A DNA stretch of 33,864 nt from Gammaproteobacteria bacterium (lineage in GTDB: Bacteria > Pseudomonadota > Gammaproteobacteria > Pseudomonadales > Azotimanducaceae), in NCBI GenBank assembly GCA_028821125.1, contig JAPPHD010000023.1, positions 1 through 33,864 on the forward strand. The letters are read 5' to 3'. Shown here piece after piece: positions 9,307-32,572 of the stretch (the stretch's first letter is position 1; the number at the start of each line of letters is the position of its first letter). The notes under the pieces are model-generated. The model searched no databases. It saw nothing but the letters and a program-made list of their open reading frames with translations, and was not told where the DNA came from. A program made the position numbers and the translations under genes.

Positions 9307-9320
9307 ACAGCACCACAAAA

Positions 9321-10700: not shown

Positions 10701-11281
10701 CTATTGATCCTCCCCGCCCATGAGCAGATCCGGGCGTCGCGCTTCCACCAATCGCCGCATGCCTTCCCGCCAAGTCACTTCGCACGCTCCGACTTGCGCG
10801 ATGCGCCTGGTGTTGTCCAGGGCCCCCTGCGGCATGGGGTTTTCGACCCCCCGTAAAACGGCGCGTAATCCGTGGCGCCGCCGATGCGGTCGCCCTCGCG
10901 GTAGCGATGAAAATGATCGGGATGGCGAGAATACACACCGGTCGTCGAGACGTGCAGGAAGGCTTGCGCACCGCGGCAGTGATGCATGAGCAACCCGGTA
11001 GCGTCCGCGTTGTCCTCCATGCCCTCGTCCTGGGTCGCCGGATTGGTATTGGCGGCGAAGTGCACCACGAAATCGAAATCGCCCGGCACGCTGTTGAAAT
11101 CTCCGTTGGTCAGATCGCATACCACCGGGACCAGGCCCATGCTCTCGGCGGCCTCCCGCGATCCCGGCCTGGAATAGCGGGCCAGGCCCCAGAGTTCGCA
11201 GCGCGGCGCCCAGTACTCGGCCACGGCATGACCGATCTGGCCCGTGTGCCCGGTGATGAGCACTTTCTTTCCGTTGAGCAT
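10701..11281 (-). pseudogene. Extended SDR (NAD-dependent epimerase/dehydratase), internally deleted
   Basis: The minus strand first reads a good Rossmann start (ATG 11281; LITGHTGQIG, CDLTNGDF, VVHFAANTNP, HVSTTGVYSRHP) up to YAPFYGGSKT near 10850. The frame then shifts, and the adjacent frame gives a normal extended-SDR tail (DNTRRIAQVGACEVTWREGMRRLVEARRP) ending at 10701. The roughly 150 residues that should lie between, including most of the substrate domain, are missing. It is therefore a deletion derivative with a frameshift at about 10840-10855, unlikely to be active. Confidence 0.75.
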
Positions 11282-11299
11282 GTGTTCTCCCCGGTAGGT

Positions 11300-11645
11300 T
11301 CCAGGTTTCCGCTTCGATTCCGAAACGATTCATGTAGCCGTTGAACGCGTAGCGAATGACGACCTCGTCGAGGCCGTAGTCCGCCGCGGCGTAGCGCAGG
11401 TGGAAAACCGCAGCCTCGCCATGGCGATCCAGCCCTTCCGGCAGCGGGGCATGCCCGAAGTCTTCAAGACCCACCTGCTTGCGGGCCTGCTCGCCCGCAC
11501 CGGCGTAGGTGTTGAGGCCACGATCGCTGGCGGTAGCGTAGCGTGCCAGCCCCCACACCTCGTTTTCCCGCGCCAGGTAGCCGGCCAACTGCATCCCGAC
11601 CAATCCGCTGGCTCCCGTAACCAGGATCTTTTCTCCGCTGATCAT
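11300..11645 (-). pseudogene. N-terminal half of a second extended SDR
   Basis: ATG 11645 starts a Rossmann fold (ILVTGASGLVGMQLAGYLAR, EVWGLARYATASDR) and continues through AAVFHLRYAAADYGLDEVV and FNGYMN, where an SDR would reach its Ser-Tyr-Lys active site. Instead it runs into the start of the neighbouring SDR gene in another frame. About 115 residues remain. The shared WGLARY segment suggests the two genes were paralogues in tandem. Both are broken. Confidence 0.7.
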
Positions 11646-13046: not shown

Positions 13047-14315
13047 GTGGCCGAACCGCGAACAGGGAACATCATACGAATTACCGATGAGACCCTTGAG
13101 CGCATGCGCGAACGCGTGGGCATCGAGGTGCCCGAACCGCGCCGTTACCACAACGACGTGGTGACCCAGGACGGCGCCCGCCATTTTGCCTGGGGTTACG
13201 GCGACGACAACCCCCTGTACTGCGATGCGCAATACGGGCGCGGCACGCGCTGGGGCGGGCTGATCGCCGCGCCGGCGTTTTCCTACACCATGGGCGAAGA
13301 CGATGTCGGGCCGCTGTCGCCGGAGATGAAGCGCAAAACGAAGGGCGATCCCCTCGCCGGCCTCGGCCTCTACCAGGCCGAGATGCAGCTCGAGTGGTGG
13401 CAGCCCCTGCGCGAAGGCGACCGCTGCTACCTGCGCAAGGCGCTGGTGGGAACGCGGCTCACCGAGGGGCGCACCGGCGGCAGGTCGATTCACGAGGTGC
13501 GAGGCATCTTCCAGCGCAACCAGCACGGCGACCCGGTCGCCATGCGGCGCGGCACCTTTTTTGCGACCGAGCGCGACCCGGACAGCGGGAAGCGCCGCAA
13601 CAAGGCCGAGCCCGCACCGGCGCCCGAGCCCTATTCCCAGGCCGAGATCGACGCCATCGATGCCTGCTACGACGCCGAGGCGGCTGCCCGCCGGGGCGCC
13701 GAGCCGCGCTACTGGGAGAATGTCGCGGTGGGGGAAACCCTCGGGCCCATGGTAAAAGGGCCGCTCAAACTCACCGACATCATCCTGTGGCACATGGGCT
13801 GGGGAATGCACATGTCGCCCCCCGGGGCCTTCCGCATGACCCGCAACGTGCGCAAGAAGGTTCCGGGCATGTTCCCCAAGGACCCGATGGGCATTCCCGA
13901 CACCGTCCAGCGCTGCCACTGGCAGGCGGACTGGGCGCAACGGCTTGGCTTTTCCTCGGCCTACGACTACGGGGCCCAGCGGGAGGTGTGGTTCACCCAT
14001 CTCATCAGCGACTGGATGGGCGACGATGCCTGGCTATGGAAACTTACCGCCAAGCATCACAAATTCAATTTCCACGGCGATACCACCTGGATGACGGGCA
14101 AGGTAACGGCAAAGGAGGTCATCGACGCGCACAGGGCGGTGCACATCAACCTGACGGCAACCAATCGTGCTAAGGAAAACTCGTCTTCCGGCCATGCCGT
14201 GGTGCTGCTGCCCTCCCGGGAGGACGGGCCTATCGGCCTGCCAGACCCTCCGGCCCCCGACCTGAGCGGCCTGATCGCCCACCAGGTGGCCAAATACCGC
14301 GACACTTACGGCTGA
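13047..14315 (+). CDS. MaoC-like / FAS1-type double hot-dog dehydratase
   Basis: About 422 residues forming two hot-dog halves. The N-terminal half looks like the MaoC N-terminal (FAS1-like dehydratase) domain: HFAWGYGDDNPLYCD and RTRWGG-like GTRWGGLIAAPAF. The C-terminal half includes VGETLGPMVKGPLKLTDI and the long HHKFNFHGDTTWMTGKV segment. Proteins of this type hydrate or dehydrate enoyl-/3-hydroxyacyl-CoA, often for bulky polycyclic or branched acyl chains. GGAGG at 13033-13037 lies only 3 nt from the first GTG (13041) but 9 nt from the in-frame GTG at 13047, so I prefer 13047. It forms an operon with the SDR that follows after 13 bp. Confidence 0.85.
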   Translation: MAEPRTGNIIRITDETLERMRERVGIEVPEPRRYHNDVVTQDGARHFAWGYGDDNPLYCDAQYGRGTRWGGLIAAPAFSYTMGEDDVGPLSPEMKRKTKGDPLAGLGLYQAEMQLEWWQPLREGDRCYLRKALVGTRLTEGRTGGRSIHEVRGIFQRNQHGDPVAMRRGTFFATERDPDSGKRRNKAEPAPAPEPYSQAEIDAIDACYDAEAAARRGAEPRYWENVAVGETLGPMVKGPLKLTDIILWHMGWGMHMSPPGAFRMTRNVRKKVPGMFPKDPMGIPDTVQRCHWQADWAQRLGFSSAYDYGAQREVWFTHLISDWMGDDAWLWKLTAKHHKFNFHGDTTWMTGKVTAKEVIDAHRAVHINLTATNRAKENSSSGHAVVLLPSREDGPIGLPDPPAPDLSGLIAHQVAKYRDTYG

Positions 14316-14328
14316 ACACGCCCCGGCA

Positions 14329-15171
14329 ATGCCAACGCGAAAACGAGTCGTCGTCGCCGGCGCCAACTCCGGAATCGGGCTGAGTGCCTGCAAACAGTTC
14401 GCAGAGCGCGGATACCTGGTTGCGGCCGGGGCCCTCGACCCCGGCGCTTCGGCGCTGCGCGAAGCCGCGGAATCCGCACCGGGAAACCTGCGCATCGTTC
14501 CCCTTGACGTCACCGACGACGCCTCCGTTGACAACGCCTTCGCAGAGATATTCGACCAATTCGGTCGCGTGGACGTGCTCGTCAACAGCGCCGGCGCCGG
14601 CTGCATCGGGGCATTGGAAGAGTGCTCGCTGGCAGAGATCGAGCACACCATGGCGGTGAATTTTTTCGGCGTCGTTCGCGCCACCAAGGCCGTGCTGCCG
14701 CGCATGCGCGAAGCCGGTTCCGGGCGGCTGATTGCCGTCAGCAGCCTGGGCGGCCTGCTCGGCCAACCGTTTCAGGACGCCTATTGCGCTTCCAAGTTCG
14801 CCCTGGAAGGGCTGTATGAGTCGCTCAGGCCGCTGGCCGCACAGTTCGGCGTGCACGTCTCCCTGGTGGAACCCGGGCCGGTCGATACGGGTTTTCGCAG
14901 CAGCAGCCGGGGTTTCGATCGTGCCGCGGAAGGCACGGCGAACGATGCGTATGTGTCACTGCGGGCGCAGTACGATGCGCTGATGGCCGCGGGCGAAGGC
15001 CGCGAGCAATCACCCGAAGACGCGGCGGCCTGCCTCGTGGCGGTGGCCGAGAAGGCGGATCCCTCGCTCCGCTATCAAACTTCCCGGTTCGCCACAAAAC
15101 TGGCCGCCATCAAGATGGCAGACCTCGATGGAAGTGCGGTTAACGATTTTGCGGCCGACTGGTTCACGTGA
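14329..15171 (+). CDS. Short-chain dehydrogenase/reductase (17-beta-HSD-like)
   Basis: 280 residues. The cofactor motif GANSGIG (11-17), the LVNSAG variant of NNAG, Ser138/139 and the catalytic Y152-x3-K156 (YCASK) are all present. The long C-terminal part after the PGPVDTGF motif resembles 17-beta-hydroxysteroid-dehydrogenase-type and retinol-dehydrogenase-like SDRs, which have a substrate lid. It probably oxidises a secondary alcohol or reduces a ketone using NAD(P). It follows MaoC by 13 bp and is presumably co-transcribed. Confidence 0.87.
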   Translation: MPTRKRVVVAGANSGIGLSACKQFAERGYLVAAGALDPGASALREAAESAPGNLRIVPLDVTDDASVDNAFAEIFDQFGRVDVLVNSAGAGCIGALEECSLAEIEHTMAVNFFGVVRATKAVLPRMREAGSGRLIAVSSLGGLLGQPFQDAYCASKFALEGLYESLRPLAAQFGVHVSLVEPGPVDTGFRSSSRGFDRAAEGTANDAYVSLRAQYDALMAAGEGREQSPEDAAACLVAVAEKADPSLRYQTSRFATKLAAIKMADLDGSAVNDFAADWFT

Positions 15172-19810: not shown

Positions 19811-19831
19811 AGTAGACTCGCTGTCTAGTTT
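19811..19831 (+). promoter_or_regulatory. Putative TetR operator in front of the PQQ-dehydrogenase operon
   Basis: AGTAGAC (19811-19817), 5 nt, then GTCTAGT (19823-19829) form a near-perfect inverted repeat. The 21 bases share 16 identities with 26223-26243 in front of the TonB receptor, including GTCTAGTTT. It lies 28 bp upstream of the PQQ-dehydrogenase start. The regulator gene is the second gene of the operon, which fits autoregulation. Confidence 0.6.
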
Positions 19832-19858: not shown

Positions 19859-21799
19859 ATGCACTCACTTGTCAATCTGAATTCAATGTCGTTCCGTTGC
19901 GTCGTGGCACTGGGTGCACTTCTACTTGCAAACTCCGCTGCTGCCCAGACTTCCGACTACCGGGGAGTCATGGAATTCCAGGAGTACTGCGCCTCGTGTC
20001 ATGAAACACCAGCACCCGGTACGAGGGTACCCACACGCGCAGAACTGAAAGCAATGCCGCCGGCAATGATATTCGAGTCCATGACGGTTGGCACGATGAA
20101 GCCGAACGCTCAGGAGCTCAGTGAGGAGCAGATGCGCAGAATTGCCGAGTGGTTGAGCGGACGGCCACTGGTCGACATCGACCGCTCCGCGGACGCCATG
20201 GCCAATGCATGCCCCGACGGCGCGAAGTTGGGCAATCCACTTGTCGGTGGACGCTGGCTCGGATGGAGCCCCGACTCGACCACGAATGGCCGATACCAGT
20301 CCGCCGGCGCTGCGGGTCTCGATGCAGCAGCAGTGCCGAAACTGAAGTTGAAGTGGGCATTCGGTCTACCTGGAGCTGCATCGCTGCGAAGCCAGCCCGT
20401 GGTGGGCGGTGGATGGCTGTGGGTAGGGAGCGATAACGGCATGGTCTATGCGCTCGATGCGGATACGGGTTGTGTACATTGGTCCTTCGAGGCTCAGCGA
20501 CCGGTGATCAGCACGGTCAGTATCGGCCCCACACCGGGTTCCCCGGGGCGGTACGCCGCGTACTTCGGTGATTTCGGCGCCAACGTCTATGCCCTCGATG
20601 CGGAGACTGGGGAGCAGCTTTGGGTCACACAAGTTGACCCACATCATGCGGCGGCGGTCAGCGGTTCCGTTGTTCTGGACCCGGCGGGTGAGCGCGTCGT
20701 TGTTCCCGTCGGCTCGTGGGAGGAGCCAATGGGTGTTTCCGCAAACTACGAGTGCTGTACGTCTCGCGGTGCCGTTGCTGTTCTTGATGCAAAAACCGGC
20801 AATCGGATCTGGAAAACCTATACGCTGGAAGAAGAGGCGAAGCCGTTGTGGAAGAACAGCGCCGGCGTCCAGAAGTTTGGTCCCTCTGGTGCGGCGATCT
20901 GGAGTACGCCGACAATCGATCCTCAACGGAATGCCGTTTATGCGGGTACGTCCAATGCCTACGTTCCGGTACCGGATGGCGGTGCCAGTGACGCCATATT
21001 CGCTTTCGATCTGGGCACGGGAAAAGTGCTCTGGTCGCAGCAGCTTCTTGAAGACGACGCCAATGACTTCGGTTGCGGAGAAACGCCGGAAGAATACCAG
21101 AAGAACTGTCCTGGCAAGCAACAGGGGCCCAACGATGACATCGGGGCGTCACCGATTCTCCACACGCTGGAAGGTGGGCGGCAGGTCCTGATAGCGTCAC
21201 AGGAAAGCCGAACCACCACTGTGCTCGACCCAGACCGCGATGGCGCCATCATTTGGCAAGGTATTCCCTCGGACCGCAAGACGTCGACAGGCGGAAATCT
21301 GGGCCCGGCGCACGACGGCGAGCATCTCTACGTACCCCTTGGTTTTGAGAGCCGGCACGAGTTCGAAAGTGCTGAGACCCTGGATTCCGAAGGTGGGCTG
21401 GTTGCACTGGATGCTGAATCCGGACACCCTGTGTGGACGACAATCATCCCCAAGCCCGAAAACTGCGAGGACCCGACATCGAGCTATTGCACCTCCGCAA
21501 ATCAGGCTGCCATTACCGCTATTCCCGGCGTCGTGTTTACAGGCTCAGTGGACGGTACAATGCGTGCGTTCTCAAGCGCCGATGGCGCTCTGCTGTGGTC
21601 CTACTCGAGCAATCGCCCTTTCGAAACCATTAACGGAGTAGAGGCTCACGGGGGCGCACTCGGCGGACCCGGACCCACGGTTGTTGACGGAACGGTCTAT
21701 TGGGGTTCCGGTTATGCGATTCTGGGCACTACTCCCGGAAACGCATTGCTTGCCTTCGAGGTCGAGTCCGATCCCGCTGCCTCGGGCCCGGGCGAGTGA
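19859..21799 (+). CDS. PQQ-dependent alcohol dehydrogenase with N-terminal cytochrome c domain (polyvinyl-alcohol-dehydrogenase type)
   Basis: 646 residues. A Sec signal peptide (hydrophobic 12-27, cleavage after AAA) leads into a cytochrome c domain with CASCH at 44-48 and a likely Met ligand in VGTMKP. The rest is an eight-bladed quinoprotein propeller with repeated YALDADTG/LDAETG/LDAKTGNRIWKTYT blade motifs. The vicinal cysteines in NYECCTSRG are the PQQ-contacting disulfide. This fusion order matches polyvinyl alcohol dehydrogenase (cytochrome); homologues also oxidise other secondary or polymeric alcohols. It is periplasmic and feeds electrons to the cytochrome chain. PQQ synthesis genes are not in the window. 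AGGGAGG lies 5 nt before the ATG. It starts an operon preceded by a putative operator. Confidence 0.88.
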   Translation: MHSLVNLNSMSFRCVVALGALLLANSAAAQTSDYRGVMEFQEYCASCHETPAPGTRVPTRAELKAMPPAMIFESMTVGTMKPNAQELSEEQMRRIAEWLSGRPLVDIDRSADAMANACPDGAKLGNPLVGGRWLGWSPDSTTNGRYQSAGAAGLDAAAVPKLKLKWAFGLPGAASLRSQPVVGGGWLWVGSDNGMVYALDADTGCVHWSFEAQRPVISTVSIGPTPGSPGRYAAYFGDFGANVYALDAETGEQLWVTQVDPHHAAAVSGSVVLDPAGERVVVPVGSWEEPMGVSANYECCTSRGAVAVLDAKTGNRIWKTYTLEEEAKPLWKNSAGVQKFGPSGAAIWSTPTIDPQRNAVYAGTSNAYVPVPDGGASDAIFAFDLGTGKVLWSQQLLEDDANDFGCGETPEEYQKNCPGKQQGPNDDIGASPILHTLEGGRQVLIASQESRTTTVLDPDRDGAIIWQGIPSDRKTSTGGNLGPAHDGEHLYVPLGFESRHEFESAETLDSEGGLVALDAESGHPVWTTIIPKPENCEDPTSSYCTSANQAAITAIPGVVFTGSVDGTMRAFSSADGALLWSYSSNRPFETINGVEAHGGALGGPGPTVVDGTVYWGSGYAILGTTPGNALLAFEVESDPAASGPGE

Positions 21800-21843
21800 C
21801 TATCCGCAATCCCCGGCGTGTCGAACCACTCCAACTTGCCGGC

Positions 21844-22467
21844 ATGAAACGACAACCGTCTCAGGCTCGAGGGATTACTCGAGTCAACGATATTCTGGAC
21901 GCCTGCGAGACTCTCCTTGGTGAAAAGAGTTACGAGGAAATCAGTATCGATGCCATCATCGAAACAGCAGGTGTTGCGAGAGGGACGCTGTACCATTTCT
22001 TCGAAAACAGACGATCTGTGTTTCTGGCGGTGATGCACCGGGCTCTGGTGGAAATCGACGAACAGACCAACCCCAAACCTGGTGAAGACAAACTTGAATT
22101 TGTCGATTACGTGGCCAGGGTTGAGCGCCGGCTTCAAAAAGTGTGGAAAAGGCATGATCAAATCGTGGAATTTTATGAAGCCAACAAATATAGCCCTGAT
22201 TTCAACGAGCGAAGGCAGCAACAGCATTTGCGTTCGGTCGAGGTAATGGCAGATGAACTGCGGTCTCGCCATCCGGAAATCGGCCTGACCAGGGCACAGA
22301 GCATCAGCCGGACCTTGTTGCTGGCGATTTGCACGGGGCTCGATGCGGTCAGTTTATCGCAACCCAATAGAGCAGCCGGGTTCAGGTATGAATGGCAGCA
22401 GATGATAATGGCCTACATCGACAGTCTGGAATTGTCGAAACAGACCTGCATTAGCGGGGAGGTGTGA
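21844..22467 (+). CDS. TetR/AcrR-family transcriptional regulator
   Basis: 207 residues. The N-terminal helix-turn-helix is clear (ILDACETLLGEKSYEEISI, IIETAGVARGTLYHFFENR); the all-helical C-terminal ligand domain is divergent, as usual. I list ATG 21844, which gives the normal TetR spacing; a GTG at 21796 overlaps the dehydrogenase stop (GTGA) and would add 16 residues by translational coupling. The LDI-like gene starts 1 nt after its stop. It is the obvious candidate for binding the GTCTAGTTT sites at 19811-19831 and 26233-26274, with an alcohol, aldehyde or CoA thioester as effector. That pairing is inferred from position and motif. Confidence 0.9.
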   Translation: MKRQPSQARGITRVNDILDACETLLGEKSYEEISIDAIIETAGVARGTLYHFFENRRSVFLAVMHRALVEIDEQTNPKPGEDKLEFVDYVARVERRLQKVWKRHDQIVEFYEANKYSPDFNERRQQQHLRSVEVMADELRSRHPEIGLTRAQSISRTLLLAICTGLDAVSLSQPNRAAGFRYEWQQMIMAYIDSLELSKQTCISGEV

Positions 22468-22468
22468 T

Positions 22469-24118
22469 ATGTCGTTGCGATTTCACTTCATCGCCTTCTG
22501 GGTCGGCGCAATGTCAGTCGCCACTCCCGTTGCGGGGCTGGCCGACGCACCGGCCGCGGCGGACTATCCGGCGCTCTCGACCAAACAGATGGGCCATGTT
22601 CGCCACATGATCAATCTGGCGAACCAGCTTGAGGGCGATTTTTCCCAGATGGGTCAGATGGATCCCGTCTACCACATGAGCTTCCACGCCTACCAGTTTC
22701 AGTTCGCATTCGCACACTACGCGCTGGCATCGGCTCACTACCACTACACCCCTGCCCACCGCGATCTCTATCGGGAAGCGTCGGCCAGGTTGATCAAGAG
22801 GATGATCTACAAGGACGTGTGGGACTACTGGGCGCACGTCAGCAAGTACGACATCACGGGAAGAACCGAGGCGGGCGGCGAGAACGTGATGCGCACTGAG
22901 GATGACTGGTACGGTTGGATCGATCCAATCATCAGGAAGAACATCATGTACAGCGGCCACCTGCTGCAAATGGTGGGTCTGCACGCGACACTGTTCGACG
23001 ATCACCGCTACGATGAACCAGGCTCTCTCACCTTTCGCTATGCCCCGACGGAATACGGCCAGGATCCCATCGAGATGAAATACGATCACGACCGGCTGGC
23101 GAAGGTTATCTATCAACAATTCGTGGAGGATCATTTCCGCGGAATCGAGTGTGAGCGTAACGCCGTCTACGCCGAGTGCAACCAGCATCCGATTCTCGGC
23201 CTCATGTCTTACGACCTGAAACGCGGCACGAGGTTCTCGACCGAGGTCCAACGGGAGTTCAAAAAGGTGATGGTGAAGCGGAACTACATTGACCCGGAAA
23301 CCAACACCACGATGTATTTTCTTAAAGTTCGGGAAGATCAGGTCATTCCGGCGACCTACGCGTGGGCCGATGGCTGGAACGGCCATGCCCAACATGTGTG
23401 GGACAAGCAGTTCATCGAGAGCATCTACCCGGATCAGCGAAATCGTTACATACCGTCGATGTTGAAGGGGGCTCCCGGAGAGGACATGGGTTATACCGTG
23501 TCCTTCGACTTTGGCTGGTTCGCCCTGCTTGCCTCCGAGGTTGGCGATAGCGAAACGGTTCAGACAATGACCAACTATGCGGATGCGCACTTCAATCCAA
23601 CCTGGATGGATGGTGGCTTACTGTATCCGGCCACCCCGGACTACCTGTGGAACTTCACGCGGGACGAAAAAGGGTTCATTCAGAATGTCGGGCCGGTGAC
23701 GGGAAACGTACTGATCGGGTTTGCACGCATCAATCCGGCAGACGGGCTCTGGCAGATCTACAATGAGCCCTTTGACAACTCGCACTTCGCCGATCCGCAC
23801 ATCACCGATGTCGAGTACCTCGAGGCCAGTGTCACGCGGGCGGTCTACGACGCGAGCAAGGACGCACTGATCGTAACCCTCGCGCCAGGGCCCGTTAAAA
23901 GCGAAACTACTTCCTTCACGGTCCGCCAGCTCGATTCGGAGAAGAGCTACACGCTGATCAAGGACGGCAAGTCTCTGGGCGAGATCAGCGGCACGAGAGG
24001 ATCCACGCCGCCCCGCACCGAGTGGCGGCCAGATGGTTCGCTGCGAATCACCACCGGATTGGACGAACCGCACTCTTTCGTGTTGCAGGCAATATCGACC
24101 AACCTGGCTGCTCGCTAG
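22469..24118 (+). CDS. Exported linalool dehydratase/isomerase-like protein with C-terminal extension
   Basis: 549 residues with a Sec leader (hydrophobic 5-23, cleavage near GLADA). The body matches the linalool dehydratase/isomerase (LDI) of Castellaniella defragrans as I remember it: NIMYSGHLLQMVGL (LDI NIMYKGHLNLMYGL, with the active-site His, here H164), GIEC218ERNAVYAEC227N (LDI GIVCEPDNYFVQCN, with both catalytic cysteines at identical 9-residue spacing), and D65 in the place of the catalytic Asp. LDI interconverts myrcene, linalool and geraniol in the periplasm. This protein is about 150 residues longer; residues from about 445 onward (VEYLEASVTRAVYDASKDA onward) look like an added beta-rich domain. 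Its position between a PQQ alcohol dehydrogenase and a geraniol-type dehydrogenase fits alcohol dehydration or isomerisation. The true substrate is unknown. Confidence 0.8.
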   Translation: MSLRFHFIAFWVGAMSVATPVAGLADAPAAADYPALSTKQMGHVRHMINLANQLEGDFSQMGQMDPVYHMSFHAYQFQFAFAHYALASAHYHYTPAHRDLYREASARLIKRMIYKDVWDYWAHVSKYDITGRTEAGGENVMRTEDDWYGWIDPIIRKNIMYSGHLLQMVGLHATLFDDHRYDEPGSLTFRYAPTEYGQDPIEMKYDHDRLAKVIYQQFVEDHFRGIECERNAVYAECNQHPILGLMSYDLKRGTRFSTEVQREFKKVMVKRNYIDPETNTTMYFLKVREDQVIPATYAWADGWNGHAQHVWDKQFIESIYPDQRNRYIPSMLKGAPGEDMGYTVSFDFGWFALLASEVGDSETVQTMTNYADAHFNPTWMDGGLLYPATPDYLWNFTRDEKGFIQNVGPVTGNVLIGFARINPADGLWQIYNEPFDNSHFADPHITDVEYLEASVTRAVYDASKDALIVTLAPGPVKSETTSFTVRQLDSEKSYTLIKDGKSLGEISGTRGSTPPRTEWRPDGSLRITTGLDEPHSFVLQAISTNLAAR

Positions 24119-24150
24119 AACAGAAACCGAACGGGGAGGTCGAGCGGAAC

Positions 24151-25011
24151 GTGCGCAAAGTCCTGCAAAACCTGTTTGCAATTGCAATCGTGTTGACTGC
24201 AGCGGCCTGTGCAGAGGGTGGCAAAGGCGAGGCTTCCACCGCGCAGGTCACGCACGAACAGGTTCGACAATACCTCCTCGAGCACCCCGAACTCGTTATC
24301 GACGACCCGGAAATCGGGAACGCGATCGAGCGAGCCCGTTCGAAGCAAGAGCGCAGGCGTGCCGCTTCCCAGCGCAGGTTCGTTCTCGAAGAACGAGCCG
24401 ATCTCCTGAGTTCTCCTCTGACGCCCTATTCCGGCGATGCGGGCTCGGCGCTGATGTTCATCGAGTTCTACGACTATCAATGCTCCCCCTGCAAAGCCAA
24501 CTATCCAGAGCTTGAGCAGGTGCGGGCAACGCAGGCGAACGTGCGCTTCCTCTATGGCCAGCTTCCGATCTACGGCAGCCACTCGATCATGGCCGCGCGG
24601 GCGGCCATCGCTGCCCACCGGCAGGGTCTCTTCGCCGCCTATCACGCCGCCCTGATGACGGCGAACACCCGTCTGAACATGGATTCGCTCTACGCCACGG
24701 CAGTCAACGTCGGGCTCGACGTCGAGAAGCTGCGGGCCGATATGCGCGATCCACAGGTCCTTCGGTACCTGGAGGAGATCCGACTGCTCGCGGAGTCGCT
24801 TGGTGTGACGGGCACTCCGGCATTCATCATCGGAGATGCAATGCTGAGTGGCGGAGCGACGGCGGACGAACTCAAAGCTGAACTTGAGCGCCAGCGCGCT
24901 CGGAGTGACGATGCGACCGATTTGGTGCTCCTTCCAACTGATAATTCGGGACCATTGGCCGCGGGCACGTTCCTGGCAAGGCGCGGCCCGCCTGGTGAGG
25001 AAATGACATAG
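24151..25011 (+). CDS. DsbA-family thiol-disulfide lipoprotein
   Basis: 286 residues. The GTG start at 24151 is preceded by GGGGAGG (24133-24139). The leader ends in TAAAC, a lipobox, so it is probably anchored in a membrane facing the periplasm. A charged helical linker (HPELVIDDPEIGNAIERARS) precedes the thioredoxin fold with CSPC in DYQCSPCKANY and the cis-Pro loop TGTPAFIIG, as in the DsbA/Com1/ScsC group. It sits between the LDI-like gene and the alcohol dehydrogenase (whose ATG immediately follows its stop), which suggests it keeps the LDI cysteines in the right redox state. The last 34 residues include LVLLPTDNSG, encoded by a dispersed repeat, so the natural C-terminus has probably been replaced. 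Confidence 0.85.
   Translation: MRKVLQNLFAIAIVLTAAACAEGGKGEASTAQVTHEQVRQYLLEHPELVIDDPEIGNAIERARSKQERRRAASQRRFVLEERADLLSSPLTPYSGDAGSALMFIEFYDYQCSPCKANYPELEQVRATQANVRFLYGQLPIYGSHSIMAARAAIAAHRQGLFAAYHAALMTANTRLNMDSLYATAVNVGLDVEKLRADMRDPQVLRYLEEIRLLAESLGVTGTPAFIIGDAMLSGGATADELKAELERQRARSDDATDLVLLPTDNSGPLAAGTFLARRGPPGEEMT
24925..24951 (-). repeat. Dispersed repeat, copy C, inside a coding sequence
   Basis: These 27 bases are the exact reverse complement of 74-100. They share the GTGCTCCTTCCAACTGATA core with the palindrome at 9321-9370. They lie in frame in the 3' end of the DsbA-like gene and encode LVLLPTDNSG. Confidence 0.85.
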
Positions 25012-26109
25012 ATGAAAATTCAAGCTGCGGTCGTCAGGGAAAAGTCGGGGCCGTTCCAGATTGCCGAACTGGACCTCGCAGATCCGGAAGACGACGAGGT
25101 GCTGGTGCGAATCGCCGGCGTGGGCATATGCCACACCGACCTCGTCTGTCGCGACCAGTACTTTCCGGTGCCGTTGCCCTGCGTGTTCGGCCACGAGGGC
25201 AGCGGCACTGTCGAAGAAGTCGGCAGCCAGGTTACAGCATTCGAGAAAGGCGACCGCGTCGCGGTCTCGTACAAAACCTGCGGTAGCTGCGAGCCTTGCC
25301 TGCAGGGTGACATCGGCTATTGCCATGGGCTCTACGAGCATAATTTCCTCGGCACACGGCCCGATGGCAGCAGTGCAATGAGCGAGAACGGTCAGACGGT
25401 GCACGGGCATTTCTTCGCGCAGAGTTCCTTCGCCTCGCACGCGCTGTGTCATACCTCCAACCTGGTCAAGGTCGATGCGGACCTGCCGCTGGAGCTGCTC
25501 GGCCCGTTGGGCTGTGGCGTCCAGACCGGCGCCGGGGCGGTCATGAACGCGCTGAAGCCGCAGGCCGGAACCTCCATTGCGGTCTTCGGCACCGGCACTG
25601 TCGGTCTGAGTGCGGTGATGGCCGCGCGCGTAGTCGGATGTGCGACCATCATCGCCGTCGACATCTCGGCGGACCGGCTCGCGGCAGCGGCCGAGTTGGG
25701 CGCCACGCACACGATCGATGCGTGCAACGAGGACCCGGTGGTGCGGATTCAGGAGATTACGGGCTCCGGCGCGCACTATTCCCTGGAGTGCACCGGGGTG
25801 CCGGAAGTGGCGCGACAGGCCGTGGACAGTCTGACGCTGACCGGGGTTTGCGGTGTCATGGGCGTATCTCCGCTGGGAACGGAGTTCAAGCTGGACATGA
25901 ACGCAGTGCTGTTCGGCCGCTCGGTGCGCGGCATCATCGAGGGCGACAGTGTGCCGCAGGTCTTTTTGCCGCGCCTTGTCAACCTTTATCGGCAAGGACG
26001 ATTTCCGTTCGACAAGTTGATCCGGACCTACCCGTTTTCGGAGATAAACCAGGCGGTTGAAGACGTGGAGTCCGGCAAGGTGATCAAGCCGGTGCTGCTG
26101 ATGAACTGA
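25012..26109 (+). CDS. Zinc-dependent alcohol dehydrogenase, geraniol/aryl-alcohol dehydrogenase type
   Basis: 365 residues of the medium-chain dehydrogenase family. Catalytic zinc ligands are C40 (GICHTD), H61 (GHEGSG) and the Cys in LGPLGCGVQTGAG; the structural zinc is bound by C90, C93, C96 and C104. The NAD motif is GTGTVGLS, followed by an acidic VDIS. The segments HTDLVCRD, PVPLPCVFGHEGSGTVE and ELLGPLGCG closely resemble GeoA (geraniol dehydrogenase) and XylB (benzyl alcohol dehydrogenase). It would oxidise a primary allylic or benzylic alcohol to the aldehyde in the cytoplasm. The start ATG directly follows the previous stop codon. A terminator comes 12 bp after its end, closing the operon. 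Confidence 0.88.
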   Translation: MKIQAAVVREKSGPFQIAELDLADPEDDEVLVRIAGVGICHTDLVCRDQYFPVPLPCVFGHEGSGTVEEVGSQVTAFEKGDRVAVSYKTCGSCEPCLQGDIGYCHGLYEHNFLGTRPDGSSAMSENGQTVHGHFFAQSSFASHALCHTSNLVKVDADLPLELLGPLGCGVQTGAGAVMNALKPQAGTSIAVFGTGTVGLSAVMAARVVGCATIIAVDISADRLAAAAELGATHTIDACNEDPVVRIQEITGSGAHYSLECTGVPEVARQAVDSLTLTGVCGVMGVSPLGTEFKLDMNAVLFGRSVRGIIEGDSVPQVFLPRLVNLYRQGRFPFDKLIRTYPFSEINQAVEDVESGKVIKPVLLMN

Positions 26110-26120
26110 CATGCAGCCGC

Positions 26121-26147
26121 AAACGCGAGCGGCCATCGCTCGCTTTT
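26121..26147 (+). terminator. Rho-independent terminator of the LDI-like operon
   Basis: Stem GCGAGCG (26125-26131) and CGCTCGC (26137-26143), loop GCCAT, preceded by AAA and followed by TTTT. It lies 12 bp after the alcohol dehydrogenase stop. Confidence 0.75.
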
Positions 26148-26232: not shown

Positions 26233-26274
26233 GTCTAGTTTAATCTATAAACTAGTTTAACCTATAAACTAGAC
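26233..26274. promoter_or_regulatory. 42-bp symmetric operator array in front of the TonB receptor
   Basis: GTCTAGTTTA (26233-26242), 5 nt, the palindrome TAAACTAGTTTA (26248-26259), 5 nt, then TAAACTAGAC (26265-26274). The half-site CTAGTTTA is thus present four times with exact two-fold symmetry. The 5' half-site recurs at 19823-19831. TATAAA hexamers at 26246 and 26263 could serve as -10 elements, so a bound repressor would block initiation. The TetR protein encoded at 21844 is the likely ligand. Confidence 0.8.
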
Positions 26275-26304: not shown

Positions 26305-28554
26305 ATGTCCGGAAAGTCATTTGGCTCATGGGTCGTCGAAATTGCGATCGTCCTGTCACTGGTCGCTCCAGCGGTTGGTTCGGCGCAGAGCTCCGCAATC
26401 GAAGAAATCGTCGTCACCGCTCAAAAGCGGGAGCAGAGTCTTCAGGATGTGCCTATCTCCGTGACGGCCTTCAGTGGCGACATGGTCGATGATTTCGGTT
26501 TCGAGGATACCCGGGATATCTTCTACCAGACGCCCAACGTGGACATAAGCCAGTATTCCTACTACGGCAGTATCACTATTCGCGGCAACCCGACTTTGAA
26601 CAATTCCCTGGCGGGTGAAGGCAACGTCTCGCTGTATTTCGACGAGGTCTATCGCCCTACCGCCTTTTACGGTGGCAATGAAATGCTGGACGTGGAGCGC
26701 GTGGAAGTGTTGCGTGGGCCACAGGGCACCCTGTTCGGCCGCAACTCAACGTCGGGTCTGGTGCATTTCATTTCGCGCAAGCCCACCGGGGAACTGGAGG
26801 GCTATGCGAATCTTGAACTCGGCTCGTACGACACCCGAATTCTTGAAGCCGCAATCAGCGGGCCGCTGAGCGATCGGGTGCGTGGCCGATTGGCTGTCAA
26901 GTACCATGAGAACGACGGTTTTCAGACCAACCAGGGGCCAGCCGGCGGAAAGCTGGCCGTAACCGACAGGCTGGCCGCCCGCGGCCATCTGGAAATCGAT
27001 CTCAGTGACTCGGTGAATCTCCTGTTATCGGTCGAAGCCAGCGATCTCGACGATATTGGCAAGGCATTCAATTTCTGGGGACTGCTGGATCCGGCGACTC
27101 TGGCGCAGTGCGAGCCAGAGCGAATCTGGGGCGGGGAATGTGTCGGGGGCGGAGCCTTCTTTGGATTGCCCTCCTTCGGCGATCCGGACCCGAGCGTAAA
27201 GCGGCCGTATACCGAGCATGACCCGGACAATGGCGACGGCCGGTATACCCTGGAGACGCTGTCGGCAACGGCAAAATTGCGTTGGCAGTTGTCGGACTCG
27301 ATAGAACTCGTTTCCATCACCGCTTATGACAGCCATGATCGCTTTTTCAACACCGATGAGGATGGCAGCGCGGTTGGCACATTCGGCGGCCTTTTCCAGT
27401 ACAACGATAGCTATACCAGCGAAACGGACCAGTTTACCCAGGAGTTCCGCTTGTCGGGCGGTAACGGTGAAACAGATTGGCTGCTGGGTCTATTCTATTT
27501 TTACGAAGATCGCGGTTCGACCAGTCACGTACAGGCGTTTGAGGGTGTGATCAGTTCTCAGGTTCCAGGAACGATCGTTGATCTGGAAACGAAGTCATGG
27601 GCGGTGTTCGGGGAGTTTGGCCGGTCACTGACCGAGACAGTCCGATTGATCGGCGGCTTTCGCTACACCGACGAAGAAAAAGAGACAGACGTGCTTACCG
27701 AAACCTTCCCCGGTTCGCAGGAACTCAGCGATGACAACTTCTCCGGCAAGGCTGGGCTGGAATGGCGGCCGCGTGACGAGTGGTTGGTTTACGGCACCGT
27801 TTCGAGCAGCTTTCGTTCCGGCAACTTCGCCACGGACTTGTTGTTTGGCGACCTCAATCAGTTGCGAGCCGTGAAACCGGAGGAGGCCGTGTCCTTTGAA
27901 TTGGGCAGCAAGTCGACCCTGTTGGACGGGCGCATGAGTCTGAACGCGACCCTGTTCTACCAGGACGTTACAGACAAGCAAGGTCTTGTCTATGATTCGG
28001 GCGTTGCGGCACCCGTGACCCTGCTCATCACCGTGGGTGATGCGGACATTTACGGCGCGGAGTTCGAGCTGTTCATGGCACCGGCGGATAGCCTGGAGTT
28101 GAGCCTTGGGGTGGGCTGGCTGGATTCAGAGGTCAATGCCCCCCCAACGTTCGGTTTCAATGCGGGCTTCGGTACCGGCGCCAATGCTTTTGTCGGCGAC
28201 CCGTTCTTCCTGGATGGCAGTAAGCTGGGGTCAGGCTGGTCCCTCAATGGGGTGGTGCGCTACCACATATCGCTGGGCGGTGGCGGTAACCTGACACTGC
28301 AGGCAGACTACGACTGGCGTGAGGAAAACATTGGCCAGAACCGAATTGACTATGCTGAGGATCGTTTGCTGGTCAACCTGCGCGCGTTCTGGAGTTCGCC
28401 CACAGAGCGCTGGGAGGTTCAAGCCTATGTCGAAAACGCTTTCGACGAGAAGTATATCGACAACCTGGGCGCGATAGTGGCGGGTGGGGACTATGCCTTG
28501 GGCAACATGGGCATGCCGCAGTGGTACGGCGTCAAGATCGGCATGAATTTCTAG
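26305..28554 (+). CDS. TonB-dependent outer-membrane receptor
   Basis: 749 residues. Signal peptide (hydrophobic 10-25, cleavage near GSAQ), TonB box IEEIVVTAQKRE just after it, a plug domain (VPISVTAFSG, VERVEVLRGPQGTLFGRNST), then a 22-strand barrel ending in the aromatic terminus GMNF. The style is that of the sphingomonad-type receptors that take up small organic compounds rather than siderophores. It has its own promoter region with the 42-bp operator array, after the operon terminator, and is likely induced together with that operon. Two cupin genes follow on the same strand. Confidence 0.93.
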   Translation: MSGKSFGSWVVEIAIVLSLVAPAVGSAQSSAIEEIVVTAQKREQSLQDVPISVTAFSGDMVDDFGFEDTRDIFYQTPNVDISQYSYYGSITIRGNPTLNNSLAGEGNVSLYFDEVYRPTAFYGGNEMLDVERVEVLRGPQGTLFGRNSTSGLVHFISRKPTGELEGYANLELGSYDTRILEAAISGPLSDRVRGRLAVKYHENDGFQTNQGPAGGKLAVTDRLAARGHLEIDLSDSVNLLLSVEASDLDDIGKAFNFWGLLDPATLAQCEPERIWGGECVGGGAFFGLPSFGDPDPSVKRPYTEHDPDNGDGRYTLETLSATAKLRWQLSDSIELVSITAYDSHDRFFNTDEDGSAVGTFGGLFQYNDSYTSETDQFTQEFRLSGGNGETDWLLGLFYFYEDRGSTSHVQAFEGVISSQVPGTIVDLETKSWAVFGEFGRSLTETVRLIGGFRYTDEEKETDVLTETFPGSQELSDDNFSGKAGLEWRPRDEWLVYGTVSSSFRSGNFATDLLFGDLNQLRAVKPEEAVSFELGSKSTLLDGRMSLNATLFYQDVTDKQGLVYDSGVAAPVTLLITVGDADIYGAEFELFMAPADSLELSLGVGWLDSEVNAPPTFGFNAGFGTGANAFVGDPFFLDGSKLGSGWSLNGVVRYHISLGGGGNLTLQADYDWREENIGQNRIDYAEDRLLVNLRAFWSSPTERWEVQAYVENAFDEKYIDNLGAIVAGGDYALGNMGMPQWYGVKIGMNF

Positions 28555-28602: not shown

Positions 28603-29070
28603 ATGACAGAAAACAGGTTGCTGACGCTGATACTCGGCGGAGTACTTGCGGCGCTGCCATTGTCTTCATTGGGTGGAGACGCCGACAAGACAACGGCCCA
28701 CCCATTGAGGCTTGAGCCGGAGAAAATACCCTACTCGGAGATGAATACCGATATTCCTCCCTGGCCAGAGGAAGACATTCTCTCAGGCGTCTCCGAGCAT
28801 CGATACAAGTATCTGTACTCGGGCGATATCGACGTGGCGATTTACGAAGCCAAGCCCATGACATTGCGAATCAAGGACTACTCCATCGATGAGTTTGTCA
28901 CGGTGGTGAGTGGAACCCTCATCCTTACCGAAGAAGGGGGGTCGCCTCAGCGATTCGGTGCCGGCGAGAGTGTACTGGTACCGAAGGGATTCACCGGGAC
29001 CTGGGAAATGCAGGGGAATTTCCGGGAAATGGTTGTGATCATGAATGAGAACCGACGTAGTCAACAATGA
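28603..29070 (+). CDS. Exported cupin (DUF861-like)
   Basis: 155 residues from ATG 28603 (GAGGGAAG about 7 nt upstream). The N-terminus (MTENRLLTLILGGVLAALPL) is a signal peptide, so the cupin is probably periplasmic. The core reads YSIDEFVTVVSGTLILTEEGGSPQRFGAGESVLVPKGFTGTW, the pattern of the EutQ/ureidoglycine-aminohydrolase-like cupins (cupin_3). His metal ligands of classical cupins are mostly absent. It is 48 bp from the receptor gene and a paralogue of the cupin that follows. The role is unknown; ligand binding or isomerisation are possibilities. Confidence 0.75.
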   Translation: MTENRLLTLILGGVLAALPLSSLGGDADKTTAHPLRLEPEKIPYSEMNTDIPPWPEEDILSGVSEHRYKYLYSGDIDVAIYEAKPMTLRIKDYSIDEFVTVVSGTLILTEEGGSPQRFGAGESVLVPKGFTGTWEMQGNFREMVVIMNENRRSQQ

Positions 29071-29106: not shown

Positions 29107-29484
29107 ATGACGATTAAGAACATAGTGGATCTGAAGCCAGGCGAATTGGAAACCGTCGAACTGTCTGCCGTGACGGACCATTCCTATATGAAGGTCGTTG
29201 CCGGCGGCAACCCGGTAGCGGGCGGTTTGACAAGCTATCAGTCGAGTGATGGAAAATTTGAGGCAGGCTTCTACCATGGCTCGGAGGTCACGTTGCGCAT
29301 AACTGGCTGGCCGGTGGATGAGTTCATGTATTTTCTTGAGGGTCAGGTTGAGATTACCAATGAAGACGGTTCATCGAAAACCTACGGCCCTGGAGACGCC
29401 CTCGTGATGCCAAGGGGTTTCAAAGGTATCTGGAGACAACTCGGCCCGATCAAGAAGATCAACGTTTCATATCCTGCGGAATAA
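29107..29484 (+). CDS. Cytoplasmic cupin (DUF861-like), paralogue of the preceding gene
   Basis: 125 residues; ATG 29107 is preceded by GAGGAGG (29098-29104), which decides the start over the TTG at 29077. The core VDEFMYFLEGQVEITNEDG, GPGDALVMPRGFKGIW aligns with the neighbour's DEFVTVVSGTLILTEEGG and GAGESVLVPKGFTGTW. It lacks a leader, so the pair covers periplasm and cytoplasm. It is presumably in the receptor transcript. No function can be assigned. Confidence 0.75.
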   Translation: MTIKNIVDLKPGELETVELSAVTDHSYMKVVAGGNPVAGGLTSYQSSDGKFEAGFYHGSEVTLRITGWPVDEFMYFLEGQVEITNEDGSSKTYGPGDALVMPRGFKGIWRQLGPIKKINVSYPAE

Positions 29485-29798: not shown

Positions 29799-30659
29799 GT
29801 GTCAGAGAAAACCGGGTTGAGCCACAAAGCAAGCTCTCGTAGCCTGTACTGATGAACAACCCCTTCCGTTATTTCAAGACCTCGCCGGAGATCATCCGCC
29901 TCGCCGTGATGATGTACATCCGCTATCCGTTGTCGTTACGCCAGGTCGAAGAATTCCTGTTCGAACGGGGAATCGACGTTTGTCACGAGACGATTCGATA
30001 CTGGTGGAATCGGTTCGGTCCGATGTTTGCCGCCGAGATCCGGAAACGGCGCCTCTGCGGACGCAACTACTCGAACTGGCGCTGGCACCTCGATGAGGTT
30101 TTTGTCCGGATTAACGGGGAGCGCCGTTACCTGTGACGCGCTGTCGATTACGAAGGCGAGGTGCTTGAGGCGTTCGTCACCAGCCGGCGAGATCGCCGAG
30201 CGGCGCTGAAGTTCCTCAGGCGCACGATGAAACGCTATGGCCGACCGTGGTCAATCGTAACCGATCGTCTTCCATCCTTTCGAGCCGCCATGACGGGACT
30301 CGGGAATGCTGGTCGGCAGCAATGCGGGCGCTGGTTGAACAACCGTGCCGAGAACTCGCATCTCCCGTTTCGAAGGCGGGAAGGGGCAATGGCGCGATTC
30401 AGGGACATAAAGACCCTGCAGAAGTTCGCTGCAGTCCATGCCTCGATTTACAATCACTTCAATCACCAAAGCAATCTCAACCACCGCCAAATCTTCAAAC
30501 AGCTTCGGGCCTCTGCCTTGGCCGAGTGGCGTAAACTGGCAGCCTGAGAATCATCGACAACAGATTTTGTAGGTCTATTGCCAGTTATTTTGACAAGGCC
30601 GTTCATCGGTACAGGCTATGAGAACTTGCTTTGTGGCTCAAGCCGATTTTCTCTGACAC
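29799..30659 (+). mobile_element. IS6-family insertion sequence
   Basis: The ends 29799-29857 and 30601-30659 are inverted repeats, 54 of 59 bases identical, with outer ends GTGTCAGAGAAAA. They enclose one transposase frame, which begins inside the left repeat. The total size of about 860 bp is normal for the family. The 8 bp flanking each end (GCAGGGCA and GCCCCCTG) are not direct repeats, so the insertion may have been followed by a deletion or cointegrate resolution. Confidence 0.85.
29852..30547 (+). pseudogene. IS6-family DDE transposase with an internal stop
   Basis: The frame reads MNNPFRYFKTSPEIIRLAVM, a helix-turn-helix region (RQVEEFLFERGIDVCHETI) and the DDE residues in WHLDEVFV, IVTDRLPSF and NNRAENSH. 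A TGA at 30134-30136 interrupts it after ERRYL, exactly where relatives have Trp (YLWRAVD). The rest of the protein continues in the same frame to 30547. A single TGG to TGA change explains it, so the copy is probably inactive by itself. Confidence 0.85.
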
Positions 30660-31891: not shown

Positions 31892-31993
31892 GTATTGATT
31901 CTATGTTAGAAATATCGAACTTTCGGTGTCACCGACTTGAGTGGCCGATGGGCTTCGGCAAGGATTGCCGCCTCTGTTTCGAGGCTGTCCATC

Positions 31994-32452
31994 ATGTATG
32001 CAGGCCAACTCGTGTTCTCCCAGATCATGGCCCATCTGCCGATGCCTGTCTTGCGCCGGTGCGTTCGCCGCTATGGGGGAAACCGTTACGTCAAAACCTT
32101 CCCCTGCCTCTCGCAGTTTCTGTGCATGGCATTCGCGCAATTGGCCCGCCGCGAGAGCTTGCGCGACATCGAAGTCTGTCTGCGCGCCCAGCACAACAAG
32201 CTCTACCACATGGGCATCCGCGGCAAGGTCTCGCGCAACACGCTGGCCAACGCCAACAAACAGCGCGACTGGCGCATCTACGCCGAGTTCGCCCAGGCGC
32301 TGATCCGCATTGCGCGGCCGCTGTACGCCGAGGACGACCTGGGCTTGGAACTCGACAACACCGTCTATGCCCTGGATGCCTCGACCATCGACCTGTGCCT
32401 TTCGGTCTTTCCCTGGGCGCTGTTCCGGTCCACGAAGTCCGGTGTCAAGCTG
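31994..32452 (+). pseudogene. IS4-family transposase (DUF4372 type), 3' truncated
   Basis: ATG 31994 starts MYAGQLVFSQIMAHLPM, then CVRRYGGNRYVKTFPCLSQF and ARRESLRDIEVCLRAQ, the DUF4372 N-terminal domain of IS4 relatives. The first catalytic Asp is present in ALDASTIDLCLSVFPW. Similarity stops after STKSGVKL near 32452, so the second Asp, the Glu and about 220 residues are missing. Confidence 0.8.
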
Positions 32453-32572
32453 TGCTACCAACGGTGTGAACTTGTATCAGATCCACCGGTTTGAAGTTGT
32501 AGGAATTCGAGCCGTGTTTTCGGCGGTCACGCTTCGGGGTTGGCGTCTTTCATCCGGAAGCTTTTTCCCTCT

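Follow-up and report, generated by a model that had tools for sequence, protein, structure and literature searches.

Gene Content and Layout of the Locus

We analysed a stretch of 33,864 nucleotides (the window) from a gammaproteobacterium of the Azotimanducaceae (assembly GCA_028821125.1, contig JAPPHD010000023.1), and more precisely a run of genes built around a member of the linalool dehydratase-isomerase (LDI) family. An earlier note, made from the letters of the sequence, had described at positions 19859-26109 a close-packed operon of four genes, encoding a pyrroloquinoline quinone (PQQ)/cytochrome c alcohol dehydrogenase, an LDI-like protein, a DsbA-like lipoprotein and a geraniol-type dehydrogenase. 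The list of open reading frames (ORFs) and the Pfam profile matches agree with these assignments, all four genes being present on the + strand of this interval. However, a TetR-family gene lying between the PQQ and LDI genes had been missed. The run thus contains five genes, in the order PQQ, TetR, LDI, lipoprotein and zinc alcohol dehydrogenase (ADH), with successive gaps of 44, 1, 32 and 0 bp, the values of 44 and 32 bp depending on inferred gene starts. Also missing from that inventory were the operators, the composition shift, the absence of PqqC and the thiol logic that links the LDI protein to the lipoprotein. The features are as follows:

19825..19831, + strand: half-site CTAGTTT, operator-like but weak (a single half-site), upstream of the PQQ gene
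19859..21799, + strand: PQQ/cytochrome c dehydrogenase, polyvinyl-alcohol-dehydrogenase-like (PQQ_2/PQQ and Cytochrome_CBB3 profiles; CASCH at residues 44-48; vicinal Cys 299-300)
21844..22467, + strand: TetR-family regulator (start inferred; the ORF opens at 21700)
22469..24118, + strand: LDI-family protein (Ldi, PF18566; N-terminal signal sequence by eye; C228 at 23150-23152 and C237 at 23177-23179; His164 in NIMYSGHLL)
24151..25011, + strand: DsbA-like thiol lipoprotein (DSBA, PF01323; lipoprotein nature by eye; CSPC motif at 24481-24492)
25012..26109, + strand: zinc ADH, near benzyl alcohol dehydrogenase (ADH_N and ADH_zinc_N)
26125..26147, + strand: hairpin GCGAGCG-GCCAT-CGCTCGC followed by TTTT, weak terminator candidate (fold prediction)
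26235..26272, + strand: two overlapping palindromes CTAGTTTAAYCTATAAACTAG, probable operator, before the TonB receptor gene (2 matches, against none in any of 100 shuffles)
26305..28554, + strand: TonB-dependent receptor (profile matches; 195-bp gap after the ADH gene)
28603..29070, + strand: cupin 1 (exported, by eye; start inferred at Met 11 of the ORF from 28573)
29107..29484, + strand: cupin 2 (start inferred at Met 11 of the ORF from 29077)

The lipoprotein gene probably starts at GTG 24151 rather than at the ORF start 24022. A terminator had been placed at the end of the operon, and a 7-bp stem hairpin (26125-26143, -15.0 kcal/mol for the stretch in the fold prediction) followed by TTTT is indeed found there; we grade it as weak, because it is missing from the output of the terminator scan. 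The TonB receptor, which the note had counted in the same set, is present, but it lies beyond the 195-bp gap and behind operator-like palindromes of its own. Two cupin genes stand 3' of the receptor gene, with gaps of 18 and 6 bp when the ORF starts are used, or 48 and 36 bp with the Met 11 starts.

A Module Conserved in Other Loci

Scanning named genomes with the LDI-family protein as query yielded 12 loci, among which L018 duplicates L011. Another one, L083, came from the family of Pseudohalioglobus sediminis, whose strain NY5 carries the module: four of the 140 genomes scanned there matched, and the other three are apparently contigs already counted. The total is 12 distinct other loci, with L011 and L012 being near copies and L022 ending inside the LDI gene. 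Since several loci sit on short contigs, the neighbour counts are lower bounds.

An ortholog of the DsbA-like lipoprotein gene follows the LDI gene in all 11 loci that extend past LDI. ADH orthologs (65-84%) were found in five of the 12 loci (L013, L014, L019, L021 and L022), PQQ orthologs in three (L016, L019 and, as a 41-residue piece at the contig edge, L021), TonB receptor orthologs of more than 50% identity in three (L021, and L016 and L019, where they are partial), and both cupins in two (L016 and L019). L011, L012 and L014, which have no PQQ gene in reach, encode a receptor of distant similarity (32-33% over some 180-200 amino acids). The order LDI-lipoprotein-ADH is repeated in L013 and L021, and the ADH gene is divergent in L014, L019 and L022. 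The PQQ gene has an aldehyde dehydrogenase gene as its neighbour in L019 and one for an AMP-binding ligase in L016. The neighbourhood is a genuine, conserved module. The earlier note had named beforehand the lack of a conserved neighbourhood as refuting its proposal; the neighbourhood recurs in the 12 other loci, but none of them was seen to reproduce the window's gene order exactly.

According to their record titles, these loci come from Halieaceae or Halioglobus, Porticoccaceae, Woeseia, Myxococcota/Deltaproteobacteria, Planctomycetota and Spirochaeta. Most module-bearing records are metagenome-assembled genomes, and some of the taxon labels may be binning errors. L011 also carries, near its LDI-lipoprotein pair, a sulfatase-family gene (13468-14883) and another member of that cluster (ORF from 15346), which perhaps hints that the substrate is sulfated.

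Catalytic Cysteines and Their Putative Redox Partner

LDI-type enzymes form alkenes such as myrcene from alcohols and are oxygen-sensitive. In the window protein, the Ldi domain is recognised with E=1.2e-80 (271.8 bits versus a cut-off of 26.1). C228 and C237 are its only cysteines and align with the catalytic Cys-x8-Cys pair of the LDI crystal structures. Among the module LDI proteins, the pair is present in all 11 alignment rows that cover it (L017 being partial and L021 containing a masked run), and the sole additional Cys is residue 2 of L015. For Castellaniella LDI, PMC6600392 reports four cysteines, of which 48/101 form an essential (capping) disulfide and 170/179 must be reduced, as well as oxygen sensitivity and a requirement for dithiothreitol; oxygen sensitivity is also stated in PMC4791888. 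The window protein, having no further Cys, lacks a counterpart of the capping disulfide Cys48-Cys101. Its Asp/Tyr active-site equivalents gave no confident alignment with those of Castellaniella LDI.

The window set resembles the LDI and GeoA pair of Castellaniella defragrans by the Ldi family, by the Cys-x8-Cys and NIMY-GH region, by the export of the enzyme (the window signal being recognised by eye) and by the zinc ADH partner. It differs by the lack of a second Cys pair, by the length of the LDI-family protein (549 amino acids versus 371-397 in the Castellaniella crystal chains), and by the thiol lipoprotein, the PQQ enzyme and the TonB receptor. The linalool isomerase of Thauera linaloolentis was likewise found by homology to LDI and is activated by reductants (PMC4791888); unlike the window protein it is membrane-anchored, and it is encoded near atu and geoAB genes (PMC4847356). 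On a plasmid of Rhodococcus erythropolis BG43, an LDI-family gene (32% identity) lies beside genes for an aldehyde dehydrogenase, a zinc ADH (49%) and an AMP-binding protein, but this 19-kb region has no match to the window lipoprotein or PQQ enzyme.

The lipoprotein matches the DSBA family with E=9e-19, and stays under the cut-off of NF041057 (Rcas_1661 thioredoxin-like (seleno)lipoprotein; 52.3 bits for a cut-off of 190). Its motif is CxPC in 10/10 loci read, the lipoproteins of L017 and L083 being left out of this count. CxPC is typical of reducing thioredoxin-fold proteins. A CxPC lipoprotein encoded beside an enzyme whose thiols are all catalytic points to the reduction or rescue of those thiols. 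Judging from these motifs, the lipoprotein more likely keeps the C228/C237 thiols reduced than forms a disulfide. We rejected a role in making a capping disulfide, because the LDI-family protein has only two Cys. A match to DsbD_TM over the cut-off was found in the window genome, so that DsbD may be the source of electrons.

Outside the module, 18 regions around other Ldi genes (L023-L030 and L044-L053; threshold E<=1e-4) and three plasmid regions contain no ortholog of the lipoprotein, other thioredoxin-fold genes not having been searched there; we count this in favour of the module reading proposed below. In one Agrobacterium vitis plasmid (L076, 8941-11014), a gene annotated as SCO-family lies 10 bp after the LDI-family gene; SCO-family proteins presumably have a thioredoxin fold.

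Predicted Alcohol Oxidation and PQQ Supply

The PQQ enzyme combines an N-terminal heme motif (CASCH, residues 44-48), a PQQ propeller and the vicinal pair C299-C300, which is invariant in the five aligned PQQ-enzyme rows. We take the association of N-terminal heme c, PQQ propeller and vicinal Cys to define the polyvinyl alcohol (PVA) dehydrogenase family. The best plasmid match is a protein encoded on a plasmid of Sphingopyxis sp. 113P3 (38.3% over 92%; identity range 38-40%). In its vicinity are genes for a c-type cytochrome and for TonB receptors, and it is preceded by a gene annotated 'hypothetical', hydrolase-like by eye. The matched protein is, we infer, the PVA dehydrogenase itself. PMC7250832 places the pva operon on the megaplasmid of strain 113P3, and describes in S. 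granuli TFA similar genes, no PQQ synthesis genes and no detected growth on PVA. The window shares with the 113P3 enzyme the three diagnostic elements, and with strain TFA the lack of PQQ synthesis genes, in so far as no PqqC was found for the window genome. It differs from the pva operon by the moderate identity and by the neighbours, i.e., LDI, thiol lipoprotein, zinc ADH and cupins.

PqqC was found in 0/8 genomes, including the window genome (G000) and the 100%-complete G163, the positive G080 making it 1/9. Hence, since no PqqC was found, PQQ may be scavenged rather than made. The pqqE search is of no help here, as its match lies under the cut-off and 14/14 controls match as well. Concerning the zinc ADH, its structure matches include 5tnx (E=1.3e-122) and the benzyl alcohol dehydrogenase 1f8f (E=9.1e-114), which place it in the benzyl-alcohol-dehydrogenase branch of zinc ADHs; we assume that GeoA belongs to this branch.

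Probable Acquisition and Regulation of the Window Copy

The GC content is 0.63-0.68 in 12 of the 13 windows left of the operon (one at 0.602) and 0.56-0.61 across it. Any Ldi match at all is present in 9/97 relatives, window genome included, and the window's is the only one of the module type by sequence; counting the window's own each time, 11/390 genomes of the order and 3/398 of the phylum have one. In the tree, nine module rows form one group (100/98) in which the labelled phyla are mixed. P. sediminis is nearest to the window (91/89, branch not starred), and the tool warns of long branches elsewhere. The sparse occurrence of Ldi in relatives, the mixed-phyla group and the GC shift suggest that the window module was horizontally acquired, and the module probably spread laterally. 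To the right of the module, transposase-like ORFs were recognised by eye at 29852-30547 and 31937-32494, in a stretch with a GC content of 0.53-0.58.

CTAGTTT occurs six times in the window for 0.84 expected, four of the six matches being inside the palindromes at 26235-26272 and one at 9318. The other loci carry another sequence, TGTCANNTGACA, found in 8 of the 12, with 13 sites in 174,774 bases (shuffle mean 0.1, maximum 2, in 60 shuffles). By position, 9 of the 13 sites precede an LDI or a receptor gene, for instance between ADH and LDI in L019 and L022 or before LDI in L013 and L016; sites elsewhere lie at 4015 in L011, 7244 in L012, 8731 in L016 and 8311 in L021. Because these loci carry TGTCANNTGACA instead of the window palindrome, the window copy seems to be under a different regulator.

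Proposed Pathway and Alternative Explanations

We propose, with a probability of about 0.5, that the locus is a horizontally acquired, regulated periplasmic alcohol-processing module in which the LDI-family enzyme, its lipoprotein redox partner, the PQQ enzyme and the ADH work with scavenged PQQ. The TonB receptor would import an alcohol, hydrophobic or large in size, into the periplasm, where the LDI-family enzyme, using its two reduced Cys and a His, would perform an acid/base isomerisation or (de)hydration on an alcohol that is not directly oxidisable; our best guess is a tertiary or allylic terpenoid alcohol, more precisely a tertiary allylic one, with polyols as a rival. The PVA-dehydrogenase-like PQQ/cytochrome c enzyme would oxidise the product alcohol and pass the electrons to the respiratory chain, and the predicted cytosolic zinc ADH would also oxidise it. 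The lipoprotein, fed by DsbD, may serve as the dedicated redox partner that keeps the catalytic Cys pair in the thiol state, or returns it there, in an oxic periplasm. The periplasmic alcohol route put forward in the earlier note thus gains support from a conserved and, to all appearances, mainly periplasmic set of alcohol-handling genes, and its LDI/terpenoid pathway is plausible, if unproven. Within the literature search made, the view that the combination is undescribed also finds support: linalool dehydratase together with PQQ returned only PMC3490891, the main text of which does not contain 'PQQ'. If the proposal is true, the module stands for a route of alcohol or terpenoid catabolism that has gone unrecognised, with carriers labelled as several bacterial phyla.

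Several observations weigh against this proposal. Nine of the 12 other loci, several of which are on short contigs, showed no PQQ gene, so that the PQQ and LDI enzymes may serve different steps or substrates. Outside the His and Cys-x8-Cys region, the alignment with Castellaniella LDI is weak, and an AlphaFold model of the LDI clade (12 rows, mean pLDDT 49.6) was too poor for an active-site check and was not used. Moreover, CxPC by itself is no proof of a reductase, and the search of the regions that have no lipoprotein ortholog covered such orthologs only, not thioredoxin-fold genes at large. Finally, the TetR gene has an ortholog in 0/12 other loci at E<=1e-6 and the window palindrome is present in 0/11 other loci tested; the regulation is therefore not conserved.

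These points leave room for other explanations. The module could be devoted to polyols: the PVA-dehydrogenase-like enzyme would oxidise the secondary alcohols of a TonB-imported, polyhydroxylated substrate (polyvinyl-alcohol-like or polyketide), and the LDI-family protein would dehydrate the beta-hydroxyketone so formed or an internal alcohol. The 113P3 match of the PQQ protein, surrounded by c-type cytochrome, TonB receptor and hydrolase-like genes, and the reported pva operon of 113P3 and similar genes of TFA, which lacks PQQ synthesis genes, speak for it, and the polymer-like substrate that the earlier note had allowed for remains an option because, among plasmid records, the PQQ enzyme is closest to this protein of a PVA degrader. 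Nevertheless, we consider a polyol module unlikely, given that a search of the window and the 12 loci at E<=1e-3 gave no match for the preceding 113P3 gene or for the c-type cytochrome, that the zinc ADH is of the benzyl-alcohol type, and that the Rhodococcus LDI homolog sits beside aldehyde dehydrogenase, ADH and AMP-binding protein genes.

As for the lipoprotein, its membership of a DsbA-like Pfam family would also suit an ordinary periplasmic oxidase or foldase, which would not reduce LDI and would be joined to it by operon inheritance only. This is quite unlikely in view of the LDI-lipoprotein pair being held in 11/11 loci while the other genes vary, and of an LDI-family protein that has no second Cys pair to oxidise. 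The receptor could, for its part, import PQQ in the manner of PqqU rather than the substrate, which would agree with the absence of a PqqC match in the window genome and with the widespread scavenging of PQQ via TonB receptors (PMC12124388). We regard this as improbable: none of the 26 PDB sequences listed for the window receptor at E<=0.001 is a YncD/PqqU entry, the rest of the genome not having been searched for PqqU, and L011, L012 and L014 keep a distant receptor with no PQQ gene in reach.

Probable Selenocysteine Relatives and the Cys-Pro-Cys-Cys Tail

A related LDI-family gene is present in 17/206 genomes of the window's family at E<=1e-20 (L005-L010, L057-L066 and L068). At the second position of Cys-x8-Cys, the codon is TGA in 11 genomes and TGT in four, all from one genus; the other two are fragments without this site. 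Past TGA, the protein goes on in the first six TGA forms, five of which are 71-85% identical to the sixth, L008. All 11 TGA forms can form a stem GGNCTC/GAGNCT around a loop GGTNT, starting 18 bases past TGA, and this hairpin, which resembles a selenocysteine insertion sequence (SECIS), belongs to the predicted minimum-energy fold of nine of them (exceptions L058 and L064). None of the four TGT forms folds it, and the amino acids there differ too. The covariation of the hairpin is supportive, not decisive, with one compensatory pair in two sister rows and shuffles reaching as high in 9/500 cases for the score and 179/500 for the pair number.

SelB exceeds its cut-off in seven of the 11 TGA genomes and also in that of the window; against a selenoprotein, the best match is below the cut-off in G026, G048 and G055, and G823 has no match. 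The search for tRNA-Sec matches every genome and 14/14 controls, being over the cut-off in 38/58 genomes and 5/14 controls. Because the controls also match, we counted only the matches over the cut-off, which occur in three of the four TGA genomes searched (G026 is below; the other seven were not searched). In the window genome, SelB directly adjoins the tRNA-Sec gene (contig C142, 90561-92549), so this bacterium can probably make selenoproteins. NCBIfam gave no match for the one TGA form scanned, and our literature searches found no paper that connects a linalool dehydratase or isomerase with selenocysteine or a selenoprotein. To judge from codon and hairpin, the TGA-form LDI-family protein is probably an undescribed selenoprotein. 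We discarded selenocysteine inside the window, where the LDI protein and the lipoprotein have Cys at the motif positions, and also in the split L017 lipoprotein, whose two pieces sit in different frames.

A C-terminal Cys-Pro-Cys-Cys tail ends the seven Cys forms read (L004, L036-L039, L055 and L056), versus 0/9 TGA forms. Tail and selenocysteine are thus mutually exclusive in the sequences read. L036 has a match to a twin-arginine translocation (Tat) signal, and L037-L039 start similarly by eye. Tentatively, and with somewhat less than even odds, the Ldi superfamily could be an oxygen-threatened thiol-catalysis family that has several separate safeguards of its catalytic Cys pair, i.e., the DsbA-like lipoprotein in the present module, the Cys-Pro-Cys-Cys tail of Tat-type and related Cys forms and, among relatives of the window bacterium, selenocysteine in place of the second catalytic Cys. 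If true, a natural partner that keeps LDI thiols active in air, together with a selenocysteine version of the enzyme, would be both testable and useful.

Elsewhere in the window, on the - strand, two overlapping ORFs in different frames (10701-11645 and 10775-11281) both resemble, by eye, parts of one NAD-epimerase-type gene, which suggests a frameshift in a single gene.

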